From Mytilus galloprovincialis (taxonomy: Eukaryota; Mollusca; Bivalvia; Mytilida; Mytilidae): 64,000 nucleotides of DNA. The notes beneath the pieces are model-generated. The model did not search any database and had not been told where the DNA came from. It saw nothing but the letters and a program-made list of their open reading frames with translations. Both the position numbers and the translations under genes were made by a program. Positions 29,501-41,500 of this stretch are shown in pieces; position 1 is the stretch's first letter; each line of letters opens with the position of its first letter. The stretch lies in contig NC_134846.1 in the NCBI RefSeq assembly GCF_965363235.1, forward strand, positions 59,323,121 to 59,387,120, read 5' to 3'.

Positions 29501-32500
29501 ATTGCTTTAATTTATCATTGAGACTGAAATGATAAATTATGCAACAATAAAATTTCAAATTCTGACTGTTTGGACTAGCCAAAGCCAAAAATTATGAGTC
29601 CTAGGACTCTCCTTCAAAAAACCCTTAGTGAGAACACTTATATGGTATAGCATACAGGAAAGTAGTGACTATATTCTGGCAAAAAATATTTATGTGGGAT
29701 ATTGACCCTATTAATATGGATTCTAGGGAAATAATTAGTTATAAAGTTTATTTGATTGAAAATGAATAGATTCCTTTGTCCTTGAAAATTGCAGATAAAA
29801 CCTTGCTTATAAAGATAAATGCCCAATATGTTTATATCCATGTTATTATTTCAGCTTTTTAATGGAACATTTACACACATTTTATCCAAAAACAGCAATG
29901 ATGTACAATGCCTTAAACAGAGATTAGAACATTTCTACAGTAGGGTAAGTAATGCAGTCATGATAGATGATATTTTTTTCTCCATGTTTGCACTTGTAAT
30001 GCATTGCATCTATGGAAATTCCCTAGTGAAATGAAATATAAGGGTTAGAAACATCTTTTTCAAAGAACTTTCTAAAATAAATCATTTTATTATTATACGA
30101 CACATTAAGTGTATGGATCTCTCTGAAATTGTACTACAAGGTTTCATACTACAAAGGAAAGGATGGGATTGAGTTTAAGGGTTATTAGTTAAAGGGGGGT
30201 TTCAGTAAGTTGGGGGGGGGGGGGGGGGTTTACAATTTTTTTAAGGGATTCCTTTTTTTTTTCAAATTTCAAATTTTGAAAAGATTCAAGAAGAATTCTT
30301 CAATTGCACAGTATTGTGCAATAGATTTGTTAGATCTTTGACCACATTTATTTCGTGACGAAAACCTTTATTATGTAAAAAAATTTGTATTTGCCTTTGA
30401 GTTCGTATATTTGTTACTGTGGATTCATTTACTTTTGTGGGTATCTGTGTTTGTGGATTGAGGAAAACTTGCGTATTTGTGGATCTTTCAATTTGTGGTT
30501 TAGTTATAAATCTCTGTATAAAATTTATAATTCGTTGACAATTCAACTGTACCCACAAAACCAACGATAATTGGTATCCAACAAATAATAATGAATCCAC
30601 AGTATACCCTTTTTCCTCAATCCACGAAATTGGTATCTATGAAAATAAAGAATCCACAGAAGTATTTGTACCTCTTCTTTGTTTCAGTATCTACAAACAT
30701 TAAAACCTCAGTTCTGTGATATATTAGATATATTTTGTGGAATCCATTTCATGCCATTGGACAAGAACACATTCCTCAGAGTCCAGTGTTTCATCAACCT
30801 GTTAGAAGCGAAGTTCTCAGCTGTTAAATATACAGCTTTTCTATACAATGATCAGTTAGTCTGGTAAGTTAAATATGCAGCTTTTCTATACATTGATCAG
30901 TTCGTCTGGTAAGTTAGATATACAGCTTTTCTATACAACGATTAGTTAGTCTGGTAAGTTAAATATACAGCTTTTCTATACAACGATTAGTTAGTCTGGT
31001 AAGTTAAATATACAGCTTTTCTATACAACGATCAGTTAGCCTGGTAAGAACAACATATGAAAGAAATGTACATTTCATTTAAAATAAATGGGTTTAAAAA
31101 TCAATGCAAACATTCGGACCAAATTCAGAAAAAAAATCTGTTATAAAGATTATCATTTTAACAAATTATAAAGGATAATGAACCAGGTTATACTGCTTGC
31201 TTTGACTCCCAGTCTTTTCCGTTCCAATTAACACAATTTTTAAATCAATGTCCGGAGTGGACATGTCCGAGTATTCATACTTCCCAGTTCTGATATTTCA
31301 TTGCTACATCCTCTTATATTGCACATATGACCATATTTTATTCAATGAATAAAAAAATTAAAAAAGTATTTTTTTGTACTATCCACTAGATAGAGAGAGC
31401 ACAGTGCATACATATTCTATAAACAATGCCAATAAAAAACATATCATAATTACAGATGCATTCTCCAGTGACCATGTGACAATGACCTCCATTTTGGCAG
31501 CCACAATCAAACTCTGTAATAGAAGAATAACTCAAATGTTGAATATAGATAATGTTACCTATCATAAGATTTGAACTCTCCAAATTATCTATTGAATCAC
31601 AGGATCAACTTATTAGTTTTATCTTTTATTGCTCAAAATAATCGTAATTGTTGCATTGCAGGAGTGGGTTAGAGCAAGAAGATATGAGGATCATGTACAA
31701 ATATCTAACTACGAGTCTGTTTCCAACTCATTTAGAGCAAGAACTCTTAGGTAGTACAACAACGTCACCAGCCAGAGTTCAAGGAAGCGTCCATTACGGA
31801 AAGTACGTAAAATAGCACCAATCAAATTACCCGATACAGTAATTGCTAATACATTTTACATGTATGAACATATGTTCAAATTCAAGTATATTAAACAATT
31901 TTTAAGTGATACTTTTTGATTGGCTTGAAACTGCAGATTAGTGAAACAAAATATGTAAAACATAGTATTGAAAGGTTCAAAAGGGGACAATTAAAACAAA
32001 ATCTTAATAACATTATGTACATTGACAGAATTTTTATTAAAAAAAGTAACTGTCTTATATTCCATAGACATTTTTTTTTAGCTGTTTGTTATTGTGATAG
32101 AAATTATATTTGAATGAGCTTACAATAATGATATTTTGTTTGCTTGTAAATGGATGTATCCAGACTGATTCTTTCAAATCAATATTAAAGGGAAACTTCG
32201 CAAAAAAATCAAAAATTGATATTATGTCCATTCTGTATAAAAATTCTCAAATTTATAGATATTAAAGTTTTATTCCGCTAGATAAGAGATCACCATCGAT
32301 TTTAAATTTTGAGTATCAATTCTCTGCTTTCCGCCATTTTGTCATCTTCTACGATTAAAAATCACGATATGTCTATAAACCACAAAGGACCAAAACTACA
32401 GTAACCGATGTAGTCGTAATTGCTTGTCGATATCTTGTCAATCGTACGGTTGTTTTATCTGACTACTAACTTGATACGGAAAATGTTCTTATTTTTTTTA

Positions 32501-35500
32501 AATAATCATAATCTGTTATTTTTAAACTGTTAATATTGGAATTAGTTAAAAAGTCAAAGTTCAAATCTTAAATAAGTGTTCCGTGAAAATTGTTTTCGAA
32601 AATCTAATTCGTTCATAATTCTTTAAAGTAATAAACTTTATTCAAATAAATTTGGATCTTCCCTCATCTGATCACCAGCATGGCTAAAGGTATTACTCCC
32701 AAAGGTATTGTGAGGGATGTGAGGTGACACGTCCAGGTATTCAAGCGATTTCCTGTCGGGCTTGCAAGTTCATGCATCGTTTCACTTCTGTAGGTATTGA
32801 TCAGTGTACACGGCCGATAACTTATAACTTTCCATTTTGAACTATCAGGTGTATAATATACATCTCTGTCTTGCATGTCCGAAAGTGATATAATATACTA
32901 GTCATTACTTAACTCATACGCTTGTTTATAAATAACATTTCTGGTGTAAAGAATATTATTTATAAAAATATAAATAATACCCCAAAAAAAAAAGATTTGA
33001 AGAAAGAAAAATCTATTTACATATTTTTTCCAAGGGTTAATTTGGGAAAATGTAATATATACTCGTTGTCAATAGTAAAGGACAGATTGGAACATACCAG
33101 AAATATTGATTTAAAAAATGTACGCACTTGTCGACGATTCGTTTGTACGCCTGGATAGAAAGTTACGGAACTATAGCGCAATTTAAAATATATACATGTA
33201 TACATTGAACATAAGAAAGAAACATACATTTTGTGTAAATTGGGGTAAAAGTTTTGTAAATAGACTAGTCCACGTATGCCAACAGAATACCGAATGTAGG
33301 ACAGAAAGTCACAGGACAAAAAGTCACAGACAAAAAGTCACGGACAAAAAGTCACAGGACAAAAAGTCACAATTCAGTTTTGAGATTATTTTTCTTTGAA
33401 CAAGACTACACTAATTTTTTTAAATATTTTTTTTGTTTTTTCTTGACCTATTTTATATGAAGCAATTAACTTTGTAATTCAAAATGTGTTCAATAAATAT
33501 CAATTATGATAAAACGTATGTAATCAACAAATTCGATAGACTATTGTATACCAAAAGAAGAAGAAGAAGAAGAGAACCAATTTGATTTAAATACAGGTCG
33601 ATATATAACTTGCTTTAGTTCATCGAAGTTATGAACATAGTAAAATCACAGATTTATATATCTGTTCCAGACCGTATGAGTATTTGGACCGTACGCGTAC
33701 GGTCTGATTAATATTAAGAAGTTAGTCAAGTTTATTAGATACGAATGTATATAACAGATCAACAGAACTTATGTCTCAAATTAATATAAAAAGTTCAATA
33801 GTAATGGAAATAAAAACTTATTATTTTAACTATTTAAAATAATCACGCTTATTTAATCTGTTAATCTCCTGTGTTTAGCAATGTCAGTAATTCGTTAACT
33901 GCATGCAGCCCATTATGCTCATTGAAATTGATGTTATCGGAAGTAAACATAATGTGGGGAGACAATTGTTATAGAATATTTAGGAACTTTACAAAAAAAG
34001 ACAAAGGAACATGCATGAACAAATCATGTTAATGTAAAAGAAAAAATATGACGTTCTTTGTGGTATATTTGTAGCAAGTGTCACCTTGGTCCAGAGTAAC
34101 AAAATAGGATTCAGATATACAATTAAACAAATATTTAATGTCAATTGTTCGCTTATTCACTTTATTCATCTATTTGTAATAATAACAATTTGTATAACTA
34201 AAAATAAAGATTTTGATAAATGTTTGTTTAAATTTAACCCATATGATCCCAAAACATGTCTGCTCAGCTGGACCGTACGCGTATACTCATACGGTCCGAC
34301 CGTACGCGTATGGTCGGACCGTACGAGTATACGTATACGGTCCGGACCGTACGCGTACGGTCCAAATACTCATATGGTCTGGAACATATCCATTAGATTG
34401 TTCTCGAATAAAGGAAGAAACTCGTCATCACAATTGTTCCGACATTCATGTAATATATATGCAACTGGACGTACACTAATAACCCCCAAGGGATGTGAAT
34501 ATTTTCTAGGAAAACTATTGAGTATTAAAGTTTCAAATCAATTTCGGGATTTATTTTCTTTCTTGATATTCATTGACAGCAATTTAAAGAATAAACTGCT
34601 TGTCCGCTTTAGGGGTATTCTTGCCAGTTGAACAGACTTATCATTACATTCAAAAATAGGGAAAGATGACATTAAATTCATTGTCTTTTGTTTTTAAAAA
34701 TCGTTGGTCAAATAGCTAAAGATTATGAATAAATTTGGTTGACGTTTTTCATACTTGAAAAGAATATCTATTCGTAATTTTTCGATTCCATTCCAAGAAG
34801 ATCCTTAAATTTCCTGTCAATTTTTTAAAATATCTTTTTTTTTTAAATAGCTGAAGTATTCATGCGTTGTGAGATTTAAAATATTTTGATAAGAACATTA
34901 ATTCCTAAATAGTTAAATAAAGATCGCTTTGGATGGATTAAATTATATAATTGCACCGTACGACCATCCAATACAAGCAAAGCCCCTACCGCAAAGTCAG
35001 CTAATTGACAATGTAAAACAATTCAAACGAAAAAATTTTAAAAAACAGCCTAATTTATTTAAGAGAAAATGAACGAAAAACAAATAGGTAACACATCAAC
35101 AAACGACAACCACTGAATTACAGACCACTGACTTGGAACAGGCACATACATAGATAATGTGGCGTGTTAAACACGTTAGTGGGATCCCAACCCTGCCATA
35201 ACCTTGGACAGTGGTGTCACAGTACAACATATGAACGAACTATACAAATCAGTTGAAAAAGGCTTAACTCATCAGATGGATAAAAATACAAATACTATAA
35301 ATACAAGTGGAAGTTTTCATTTTTGCAATTTGAGAGTAAATGATATATCAAACGTTCAAGAATACGCATGTAATATGTGTCACTGGATATAAAAAAAAAT
35401 CATCCTCAACACCAGCTTCCGTATGGGACATCCCCTTTCAGTGACCTGCAAATTTAACAGATGATACACTTTCTAAGATTTATATGTCCAACAACGACCC

Positions 35501-38500
35501 ACTGCTCTACATGTGTTACTAACAGCCTAAGATAGCAATTATTTTGTTAGGTCAATTCTCTTTCGCGGTACATACCAGAAAACATGGAAAATAAGTTCTT
35601 TAAATTTTGACTCTGGAATTAATACCATTTTTTTCGTGCGAGAAACTTTATTTCTGGCGATGAGCAGACATTGGCGGAAAACAATAAAAAGATAGGTTTA
35701 ATATTTGTTCATTCATTTAACATGTATAATATGAATATCATTTAGTACACTTCGGTCTATACAAATGCAGAATATACCATGATGGTTTGATTTCGTCAAA
35801 AGATATAAGAGATCTGACAAATAGATTATCACTTCGATATTGCAAGACACCCATTTATAACTTTGTACTTTTGCATACCAAACTTTCGCAAAAAGATAAG
35901 CCATTTGATTAAATAAGAAGTTGTGGTTTGTTTTCTTGGGAGACACGTACCCAAATGAAGTGGACTTAAGCAGCTATTCAAGTCACGGTATGGCCTTCAA
36001 CAGTGAACAATAGTAGAAGTATATTGTATAATTCAACTAAATGTGAACATGAAAGAATTAAAGCAGACATATATATTTTATCTATACATATACAAAAGAA
36101 TATTTTGAGCCTCAAATCTAGCATATGTCTATTTTACAACTATTCCGAGTCTGACGTGTCACTTTCACATTCTCTGAAGCCTTCATAAACACCATCTTGT
36201 GACGGAAATGCTTCCCTAATAATGTAAACAACACAAGCTGGAATAGTCACTCTGTTTCTCTTGCCAAGTGGTTGCCCTTTTCTGACCCAACAAACAAACT
36301 GACGATAAGCCATTAGTCGGCTTTGGCTGTGAGTTAGTACGTCTGGAGCTCTCCCTCTATGGCGCTTGTACCTCAAAAAACTTATATAGCTGGTTTCAAG
36401 AACAACCGGGTTCAGACAAACTGTTCTGAAAATGATATTGTCACTAATGCATTCACCCAATTCAATATTACCATCAAAGAGAGTAAATTCGTGGCAACAA
36501 AGACATTCCGTCATTAACGGCATAACTATGCATTTAGTACACGAACACCAATCTGTGTTAAACTGGCGAGGGTTGCTAAGGATATCTTGATTTCGCCGGG
36601 GAACTTTCTGCAGCTTCCATTTTATGGAGCTCTTCTTCGGTATACTCTGGCTCTAGAGCGAACCCAAATAATTAATTGACCATACTCGTCAAAATCTGCC
36701 TCTCTTGACGGACTGGAACCACTGTTAGTACTATCATTCTCTGAACAAGACATTTTTAGTTATGATTTTATGATTAATTTTTGAACCATATGTACACTGT
36801 CCTATAGAAACAAGCACGCACAAATCATAAGAGAAAAATATGTGAGTAAAAGTTAATTGAATTATCAAAGTTAATATCCTTTGGTCTCGAATGTATGTTA
36901 ACTAATTAATGTGTTTTTATAGGCTAGCTTAAACCCTCATCCAAATAATATAATCTATATGTAATAATCGTTTCCTACCACACAGAGATTTAATGCCAAG
37001 CGTTAGACACATTTTAGGTACTAATTAAGTAATTAAATGAACAATAGATAACAATAATTAATCATAAATGTGCAAAGATTTAAAAAAAAAAAGTATTTTT
37101 TCTTATTCGTTCATATTATATTCCGCTTCGGTTAGAGTTATCTTCAGATAGTTTCAGATATTAATTAATACATGGGTTTCAAAAGTCTAATTGTAAGTGT
37201 TCTCGTACACTTGTTTGCCTAATAAAGACAATCAAAAAGCTTTGGTAAAGCTATTTCTAATTTCTAAGTTCCCCTTTTTTATGAGACATAAATCAAGGAC
37301 AAGAGGTGTATATCATTTCATTCTGACACATGAATTAAGTTTCCCGTCTTTAACCAAATTTTTTTTTATTTCTTAGTAAATTAATTTATTTGAATTCAAA
37401 TAAATAAGAGCACCAAATATAATTAAATAATTCCACGGCGATCTATTTTCGTTTGTCACCAACTTGAATATGTATTTTAAATGTGTGTATTAAATGCTCC
37501 CTTGTTTTATAATTCACTGATCCGAATAGACAGTCACACCTGGCAAGGTGTGCCCTAGAGGCGTGGTTAAATACCGAAGTGCAAATAACAATTTACCTTT
37601 CAACAAGCCATCTACGAGTATTGCCACAGAACCGTGAATACACACATCGTATAAACCTAGTCATAGCAGAGACAGTAAAAGGTCAATAAGAGTACACCAA
37701 CATATTGTCTATACAGATTATTGTACTTTAATTTGTTCACCTTATCAGTCCGAAAGTGCATTAATTAACAATAAATTTATAACTTTTTGTGTTATCTAAA
37801 AAAACAATTCGAATATATACGTTTAACATAGAAAATGTATCTCATGAATGTGTACAATTGCACGTCTGTGCGTTTTATCTTCTTATTATTGGCTGGTTAT
37901 TAGATAAAGCATAAGTCATCGGCGCGCTTACGATTACGTTAAAATATGATTAAAAACCAAGACTTTTAATGATTGTATTTTAAATCCCGGCATGCAAAAA
38001 CCAGGAGAAAACGTCACGACCTACAGGAAGTTGTTAATATTTTTTCATTAATTATTGAATTTCTCCTTTATTACTGCACATATAGTGATAAAACTTTGTG
38101 AATATATATATTATGTCATAATGAACATATTTAAACCATAAGTAAAAAATCGCGAATTTTCCCTTTAAGACATGAATAATTACATTTGTTTTGCAAGAAA
38201 GGATAGATTTATGGTGTTATATTTTTTTTTCCAAACATGTTAAACTTTTATGGTTAGAGTTGTTTAAAGCCCTCAGTGGTGGTTGCTTAAATGTTGCAAA
38301 TCAATATTGGCAGTAAATAAAAATTTAGGACATTTTACAGTTTTATCCTTTTCAAATTTTTCCAATTTTTTTTTTTTTAATTTTATTTAAAACAACAGTA
38401 TATATTGAAAAAAGATAAGTGTAATAATGTGATGGCATTTTTTTAATTAAAATTTCCAGGTTTATAACAGGTCCTCCAGATATAAAAGATGACCAAAATA

Positions 38501-41500
38501 TTGGTAAAATACCTCGAGTATACTTAAATACCTCTGAGGAGAATGAAGAATGTTATTTACTGGTGTACAGAGCACACAATGCCAGTGTTTGTATGTTAAT
38601 TAATGGTAAGTTTGCTGTTATTTATATTTTGAATCATTTGTTAATTGACAAATGTAAATTGTGAGCATTATGTTTAATATTTGAATAAAACATTCAAAAG
38701 ATAACTGGAAATATCAAACTTATTGGACAGTACTATAGACAACACAAGCCATCATCGCCTGATTCCTTTTAAAAAAAAGTAGGTATCGAAACAACTACAA
38801 AACACTATCTAGATAATATGTTGTAAAAACACAATGACAAACCTGCAGTTCAGCTACCAATTAGATAACCTCATACTAAAAAAAGGAAACAAAAGTCAGT
38901 ATTTAGAATTATCTCATGAACATGCATATTCAGAAAGAAGATATAAGCAGATGCCAATGAGACAACTCTCCATCCAAGTCACAATATTTAAAAGAAAATC
39001 CATTATAGGTTAAAGTACGGTCTTCAGCACAGAGCCTTGGCTCACACTGAACAGTAAGCTATAAAGGGCCCCAAAAATAACCATTGAACAACCATTCAAA
39101 CAGGAAAACAACAGAGTAACCTATATAAGAAACAAGAAACAAGAAACACTTATGAACCACACCAACAAAAAGCGATTACTGTCAACTGAACATCAGGTTC
39201 CTGACTAAGGACAGGTGCAAACAATTGCAGCTGGTTTACACATTTTGATAGGTACCAATCATCACCCTTACCCAAAGCATAAGGCTTGGTTTCTGGTTTT
39301 TTTTTTGTGGAATAGGATAAGCACAATGCTTGTCATATATTTTTTTACAATAATTTAATTTTGGATGTAACACGTCTTCTGATTGGCTGACGTTGTTATG
39401 TTTATCAGCCCATAGACATAATTTTATCATGCGACGGTGACGTCATCAACTTTTTTTATAGTTTACTCCGGTTTAAAATGGAATTTAGAATTAAATTATA
39501 AGAAATGACTGTAAAATAACCCGCTATGCAAGTTATTCAGTGTGCACCACATTTTTAGCTCACCTGGCCCGAAGGGCCAAGTGAGCTTTTCTCATCACTT
39601 GGCGTCCGTCGTCCGTCGTCGTCCTGCCTCGTCGTCCGTCGTCGTTAACTTTTACAAAAATCTTCTCCTCTGAAACTACTGGGCCAAATTTAACCAAACT
39701 TGGTCACAATCATCATTGGGGTATCTAGTTTAAAACATGTGTTCGGTGACCCAGCCAACCAACCAAGATGGCCGCCATGGCTAAAAATAGAACATAGGGG
39801 TAAAATGCAGTTTTTGGCTTATAACTCAAAAACCAAAGCATTTAGAGCAAATCTGACAGGGTTAAATTGTTAATTAATTCAAGATCTATCTGCCCTGAAA
39901 TTTTCAGACGAATCGGACAACCGTTTGTTGGGTTGCTGCCCCTGAATTGGCAATTTTAAGGAAATTTTGCCGTTATATGGTTATTATCTTGAATATTATT
40001 ATAGATAGAGATAAACTGTAAACAGCAATAATGGTCAGCAAAGTAAGATCTACAAATAAGTCAACATGACCAAAATGGTCAATTGACCCCTTGAGGAGTT
40101 ATTACCCTTTCTAGTAATTTTTTACAAGTTTTTCGTAAAATTTTGTAATCTTTTACAAAAATCTTCTCCTCTGAAACTACTGGGCCAAATTTATCCAAAC
40201 TTGGCCACAATCATCTTTGGGGTATCTAGTTTAAAAAATTTGTCCAGTGAAACCGCCATCCAACCAAGATGGCCGCCATGACTAAAAATAGAACATAGGA
40301 GTAAAATGCAGTTTTTGGCTTATAACTCAAAAACCAAAGCATTTAGAGCAAATCTGACATGGATAGAATTGTTTATCAGGTCAAAATCTATCTGCCCTGA
40401 AATTTTCAGATGAATTGGACAACCCGTTGTTGGGTTGCTGCCCCTAAATTGGTAATTTTAAGGAAATTTTACTGTTTTGGGTTATTATCTTGAATATTAT
40501 TATAGATAGAGATAAACTTTAAACAGCAATAATGTACAGCAAAGTAAGATTTACAAATAAGTCAAAATGACTGAAATGGTCAATTGACCCCCTAAGGAGT
40601 TATTGTACTTTATAGTCAATTTTTAACAATTTTTATAAAATTTGTAAATTTTTACTAACATTTTCCACTGAAACTACTGGGCCAAGTTCATTATAGATAG
40701 AGATAACTGTAAGCAGCAAGAATGTTCAGTAAAGTAAGACGTACAAACACATCACCATCACCAAAACACAATTTTGTCATGAATCCATCTGCTTCCTTTG
40801 TTTAATATTCACATAGACCAAGGTGAGCGACACAGGCTCTTTAGAGCCTCTAGTTTATGTTATTTCTTCATAGACAGAAAAAATATTACAGTCATTCCTT
40901 ATTTAAAAAAAAATATTCTGGATTATTTTACTTTATGTTTCATATCAATTCTAGTGGAACTAGACTGGTATACGGTAGATCATGTATTTGTAAACATATG
41001 AAATGTTATCAGTGTATAGAGTTTTAGTAACTTAGTCAACCAAATAACACAAACATGATGTAGTTAATTTCAGAAATACTGTGTCATTAACGTTTAACTT
41101 ATATATTGTATATTTTCATTTTATCAGTTGCAACAGCATTGAATTTTGACCTCTGTCAGAAGTTAGATGTTTTCTTGGGACCACAGTTAACAAATTTAGC
41201 ATCAGACATTGGTGAACAATACTCTAAGCGACTATCTGTCAGGTATAGTTTTCTTGTATATAAGTTACAGTTATACAACAGAAAATTAATGATTTTTAAA
41301 TTTCAATGTTGGAAAAAGAGAGTGAGATATATATTTGGTATTTCCTTAATGATATGTGTATATACAACATTCTAAATTTGTCAAATGTCTGTAAATAAGA
41401 AAACATATTGGAATAAAAGTGGGTTATCATTTTTATTGGAGTTGTTTCCAAAATTCAATAGCTCAGAATTAGTATGGATACATAAAAAGAAAAGGTGTGT

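Follow-up and report, generated by a model that had tools for sequence, protein, structure and literature searches.

Why should a gene for the cysteine-rich C-terminal (ballast) domain of the P2X7 receptor lie in an intron of a mussel gene, between inverted ends that each begin with TTAA? The question is raised by a unit of 5984 bp (32185..38168, both TTAA copies included) in the window, by which we mean the whole stretch of 64,000 nucleotides of Mytilus galloprovincialis DNA that was analyzed (NC_134846.1, positions 59,323,121 to 59,387,120). The unit is almost certainly a copy of a Kolobok DNA transposon of the Kol0 type that has lost part of its interior and is non-autonomous, and in which the P2X7-domain gene is the transposon's own gene, KolX; the type was assigned by comparing features with published descriptions.

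The first-pass annotation of this DNA had proposed that the domain may travel as cargo of a DNA transposon, and that a host-like signaling domain would in that case have been spread in this way. Rather than captured cargo, the domain is KolX, the second gene of a Kol0-type Kolobok. By Kojima and Bao (2022; PMC9587614), the KolX protein of Kol0 elements is described as having the ballast fold and P2X7 is held to have arisen by fusion with KolX, so that the published direction is the opposite one, with the tail of the vertebrate receptor thought to derive from KolX. The link between domain and transposon had therefore been published already, and the window unit is a well-documented further example of it, not a new kind.

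The left end (32185..32201, plus strand; exact sequence TTAAAGGGAAACTTCGC) consists of TTAA followed by AGGGAAACTTCGC, and the right end (38152..38168) reads TTAA followed by AGGGAAAATTCGC on the minus strand, with TTAAAGGGAAAATTCGC as its reverse complement. These inverted ends measure 17 bp each with TTAA included, and the termini of the unit, AG ... CT, fit the 5'-RR ... YY-3' rule for Kolobok. KolX occupies 36140..36753 on the minus strand, with its start codon at 36753 and its stop codon at 36140, and homology to the intact relative L009 extends beyond the start codon. The Pfam family PF20478 (P2X7 C-terminal domain) matches at 36140-36523, with E=1.3e-12 for a 127-residue frame that begins with ATG. 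Over 600 aligned coding bases the gene differs from L009 by 20 substitutions and 11 inserted bases; the frame is shifted in the first third, and therefore only the final 170 codons (36143-36652) are open, and when aligned with the intact relative they are 85% identical to it. The annotated domain is thus present, but the gene that contains it is broken. A homology search with the transposase of relatives gave no match within the window copy; its KolX is frameshifted and its transposase is gone.

Other parts of the unit match its relatives as well. The right part (34954..38168) is 90.9% identical to the transposase-bearing L009, and the left subterminal region (32185..33288) is 85-97% identical to 12 loci (L002-L005, L039-L041, L043-L047); in three more (L007, L008, L042) similarity, at 73-75%, is confined to the initial 140-172 bp. 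Of the transposase gene that was lost, a 34-bp trace on the minus strand (32430..32463) matches the beginning of the THAP exon; this match is weak alone (E=0.001), and comparable weak matches occur at the equivalent position in other units.

Duplication of TTAA on insertion can be observed for family A, to which the window unit belongs, because one unit (L045) is nested in another copy of the same family. When the flanks of L045 are joined with one TTAA they match uninterrupted copies across the junction, and two of these, L003 and L005, carry exactly one TTAA at the insertion point and so provide a paralogous empty site. Cross-junction matches for the joined flanks of L041 resemble local repeats and were left uncounted.

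Relatives with a transposase

Relatives of the unit appear to encode two genes arranged tail to tail, namely a transposase with a DDE exon and an upstream THAP exon, and KolX with its ballast domain. The genome holds at least four full-length open transposase frames. In L009 a KolX frame of 200 residues and a transposase frame of 579 residues between stops stand tail to tail; in L012, a member of family B, the frames measure 199 and 611 residues and are arranged in the same manner. A further relative, on contig C1, has both ends, with 10,035 bp between TTAAAGGGAAATTCCGC and GCGAAGTTTCCCTTTAA, and carries an open 577-residue DDE frame, remains of KolX, and a THAP exon (PF05485, E=6.3e-11). This exon lies close to the left end, on the same strand as the transposase, and has homologues in L009 and L029.

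Motifs recognized by eye in the transposase of the relatives (GGDGRCDSPG, VTDRH, DVWH, HTG-LE) fit the DDE plus C/DxxH signature of Kolobok. An H-H-C-H arrangement, visible by eye only, can be compared with the H2CH zinc finger, which a Xenopus study (PMC6004289) counts with THAP and DDE among the usual parts of Kolobok. In a Pfam scan the L009 transposase showed no piggyBac domain, its single match, to MULE (E=0.03), falling short of that family's cut-off, and a scan with NCBIfam returned nothing useful. The window unit and its relatives taken together share with the Kol0 type (Kolobok-1_XT) the TTAA target, the AG ... CT termini, a DDE transposase with C/DxxH, probably THAP, and the KolX ballast domain; the window copy differs in having no transposase. 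As an observation in its own right, two family B units (L020/L051 on C14 and L029/L052 on C6) have both ends and KolX and are without the 5-kb transposase stretch of L012. Their deletion junctions differ, and therefore the loss may have occurred twice.

A third family, C, has a copy on C5 in which 9524 bp lie between TTAA-AGCAATATAAGC and its inverse, with termini AG ... CT, and its KolX-like frames lie on one strand and its DDE-like frames on the opposite strand. The ends were located where homology stops between copies that are ~99% identical (L013/L053/L080 on C5, L014/L078/L081 on C1, and L015/L082 on C12). On the KolX side all three copies begin at the identical base. The C5 and C1 copies also have their opposite limits at a common base, and the sequences around the copies differ; for C12, no far end was found within the piece read. 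Among the matches listed, L011 and L013-L017 are 97.8-99.2% identical over ~3.2 kb and L021 is ~93-94% identical, with five contigs represented. What is new here is a large and partly recent expansion of KolX-bearing elements in one genome.

These relatives bear on whether a TTAA transposon might instead have captured a host P2X7-domain gene recently, as a passenger. KolX does look passenger-like in that 12 of the 13 fully read two-ended units of families A and B yield no transposase match. Those 13 are a non-random sample, comprising the window unit, L020 and L029 (found via KolX), the C1 copy (found via its transposase, and the one unit that has it), and L039-L047. However, the diverged families A, B and C all keep the tail-to-tail layout with the transposase, and the high synonymous divergence (dS 1.26) that separates A from B makes the association an old one. 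As a component of Kol0 elements, KolX has also been published (PMC9587614). We consider recent capture to be highly improbable.

The KolX protein

The KolX protein of L009 matches PF20478 with E=1.7e-20 and P2X7 chains in PDB (best 9e3m, E=3.1e-5), and by these matches KolX has the P2X7 ballast domain. In common with the domain of P2X7 and of nanor (the ZCD proteins), intact KolX retains the seven cysteines, the equivalents of rat R546 and R578, Y550, and the F-P motif. It differs from them in that it has no channel part, is encoded by a mobile element, and is without the equivalents of H547, R574 and K583 (rat numbering, counted along the alignment with the PDB chain). The same residue losses are described by Rump et al. 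for other ZCDs beyond deuterostomes. A structure prediction for KolX from four sequences had a mean predicted local distance difference test (pLDDT) score of 37.9 and was discarded.

The pattern of substitutions depends on which copies are compared. Between KolX of family A (L009) and of family B (L012, L020), the ratio of nonsynonymous to synonymous rates (dN/dS) is 0.12. For the transposases of A and B it is 0.03 to 0.05 at a saturated dS of 2.7 to 4.0, and for the close transposase copies on C1 and C4 it is 0.28 on 14 changes. For KolX of L012 and of L020, which is without a transposase, it is 0.63 on 18 changes. Six transposase-less family A copies, among them the window copy and the C2 copy L056 (only its left end lies in the stretch read), were compared with L009: singleton changes number 15, 21 and 20 at the first, second and third codon positions. 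The corresponding numbers are 3, 1 and 4 for changes that all six have and 2, 3 and 4 for those that several of them have in common. Given the low A-B ratio and the even spread over codon positions in the derivatives, it seems that mobile lineages retain KolX, and that it decays in derivatives that have no transposase. L040, L046 and L047 share the loss of the 3' part of KolX, so derivatives probably spread without need for a KolX of their own.

It might nevertheless be supposed that the host has kept the KolX in the CCZ1-like intron as a domesticated gene, for its final 170 codons remain open and resemble the intact relative. Both the 11 inserted bases that disrupt the first third and the even spread of singleton changes, to which the window copy contributes, make domestication most unlikely.

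Copies across the genome

In the genome, of 1.38 Gb, the 17-base end pattern has 529 matches on one strand and 516 on the other (1045 in all), against 0 and 1 for the reversed pattern used as a control. Together with the exact ends and the PF20478 match, these counts uphold the annotation of a P2X7-domain gene in a TTAA-bounded unit that is antisense within the CCZ1-like intron. The places inspected were the 100 listed, all on contig C1. Among them, neighbors within 12 kb face each other in 10 pairs, where 0.23 are expected at random, face away in none (expected 0.25), and share an orientation in one (expected 0.45). All ten facing pairs were read; for one 11-kb pair, 10 kb of interior constitutes L048 and the ends lie in L006 and L007.

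Although only their ends had been used to choose them, all ten units show partial alignment with the window unit, the aligned pieces being 64-98% identical. A genome search for further units with these ends had been suggested in the first-pass annotation, and seven of the ten (L040, L041, L043, L044, L045, L046, L047) prove to have remains of KolX. L039 has lost the region; what L042 retains lies immediately upstream of where KolX starts; and L048 has no KolX match and carries another inserted element. The DDE part of the transposase has no match in any of the ten. For the units picked by the end pattern (L039-L047), TTAA and the AG/CT termini are given by construction, and these units were excluded as a test of either. 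L048 itself (C1:7968500-7978499) is a bounded unit broken by long open frames that, by eye, resemble a non-long-terminal-repeat retrotransposon.

Could two unrelated miniature elements simply flank a resident P2X7-domain gene by chance? In Xenopus there is an abundance of T2-MITEs, which are short, non-autonomous and bounded by TTAA and AGGRR (PMC6004289). The units here are likewise non-autonomous with a TTAA target, and their terminal AGGGA fits AGGRR; they differ in length, since the bounded transposase-less units read span 3.0-6.7 kb, and in that most hold remains of KolX. Against a chance pairing stand the interior pieces that other bounded units have in common with the window unit and the excess of face-to-face ends, and we find it scarcely credible. 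Among the copies read, the ends were not confined to separate miniature elements, nor was the gene missing from every bounded unit. A piggyBac origin, suggested by the TTAA target and by the few piggyBac families that carry a KolX-like C-terminal part (Kojima and Bao, PMC9587614), is just as implausible, given the AG/CT termini, the DVWH signature and lack of a piggyBac Pfam match in the relatives' transposase, and the presence in intact relatives of all seven cysteines, most of which are described there as absent from the piggyBac proteins.

The Kolobok assignment can also be examined starting from the domain. A profile search for the P2X7 domain gave 102 matches, merged into 93 loci, and a transposase search gave 78 matches, merged into 57. 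A transposase match lies within 10 kb of 16 of the 93 domain loci, where 0.08 are expected, and all 16 pairs are tail to tail. Outside these 16, a further 18 loci with C-terminal-only profile matches and ends as yet unseen were hand-picked from the ranked list, and 1.7 kb of each was read at the expected position of the right end, with the pattern widened for family B. An end in the correct orientation is present at 12 (with up to three mismatches; 11 have at most one), against 27 of 900 first-order Markov shuffles. More than 300 bp outside the domain is shared with another locus by 29 of 30 domain loci read, or by 27 of 30 once L032 and L033, which overlap by 340 bp in the genome, are dropped; for L037 and L038, which lie 10 kb apart, the sole partner of each is the other. 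By this sharing, the remaining P2X7-domain loci behave like dispersed repeats. The earlier suggestion that the domain travels in a TTAA-targeting DNA transposon, and that this accounts for many of its copies here, is borne out by the bounded units, by the ends at the 18 loci, and by the 16 transposase neighbors. Separately, L034 and L035 (C9:17037311-17044825) lie 4 kb apart in inverted orientation with 99.8% identity, the product of a recent inverted duplication.

Several observations weigh against reading the unit as a deleted Kol0-type Kolobok. No family A or B copy seen combines an intact KolX and an open transposase with both ends: no left end was found for L009 within 10.5 kb (including 4 kb of extended search) or for L012 within 9 kb, and of the 200 KolX residues the C1 relative retains approximately the final 80, split over two frames. 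On C5 the family C element is bounded at both ends, and its exons (of split KolX and transposase genes) are predicted only, as is the splicing of THAP to the DDE exon in the relatives; the role proposed below for KolX is deduced from its sequence. Most other aligned copies are without a single TTAA at the L045 insertion point, having a 4- or 5-base gap (the window copy included) or other differences (L002, L041). Neither genome search scored all of its candidates (150 of 199 were scored for the domain, 76 of 226 for the transposase), and at that sensitivity 77 of the 93 domain loci have no transposase match within 10 kb. Finally, no end was seen at six of the 18 loci; L061, L064 and L066 still align to the element, and L065, L068 and L076 do not.

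The host gene is represented by two exons on the plus strand, one upstream of the unit (31662..31803) and one downstream (38460..38607), with borders that are approximate and drawn by eye. Their joined translation matches Intu_longin_2 (PF19032, E=1.1e-18), as expected for CCZ1, the probable identity of the gene; KolX runs antisense to it. Within the unit, two extra stretches (33289..33515 and 33663..34385) are absent at those positions in aligned copies and are probably later insertions. The first contains tandem ACAAAAAGTCAC units, and related stretches are present in L008, L045 and the elements of L009, L020 and L029. The second has long inverted ends around GGACCGTACGCGTACGGTCC and is probably a separate miniature transposon.

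Mechanism and meaning

The window copy most likely arose by cut-and-paste insertion into a TTAA of the CCZ1-like intron, with duplication of that TTAA, and transposase for its movement would have been supplied in trans. KolX itself would most likely assist transposition as an accessory factor, with two zinc ions and perhaps a guanine nucleotide as its ligands.

Among the open-licence papers of PubMed Central that were searched, KolX is mentioned in one, and Kolobok together with P2X7 in that one and in a second, where each word appears once. The genome-wide counts given here support the published claim that the P2X7 ballast domain is a transposon protein. The finding also qualifies a statement made by Rump et al., and genes annotated as 'P2X7-like' in such genomes can be transposon genes. 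The transposase of the P element uses GTP. It is a tentative idea, which we rate as possible and still rather doubtful, that the ballast domain began as a transposition factor, with the zinc and guanine-nucleotide site of KolX regulating the THAP-DDE transposase, and that the receptor tail was later repurposed from it. If this is true, the nucleotide-binding tail of P2X7 would be a repurposed transposon regulator, and the KolX-bearing units of this genome would be a natural test bed.

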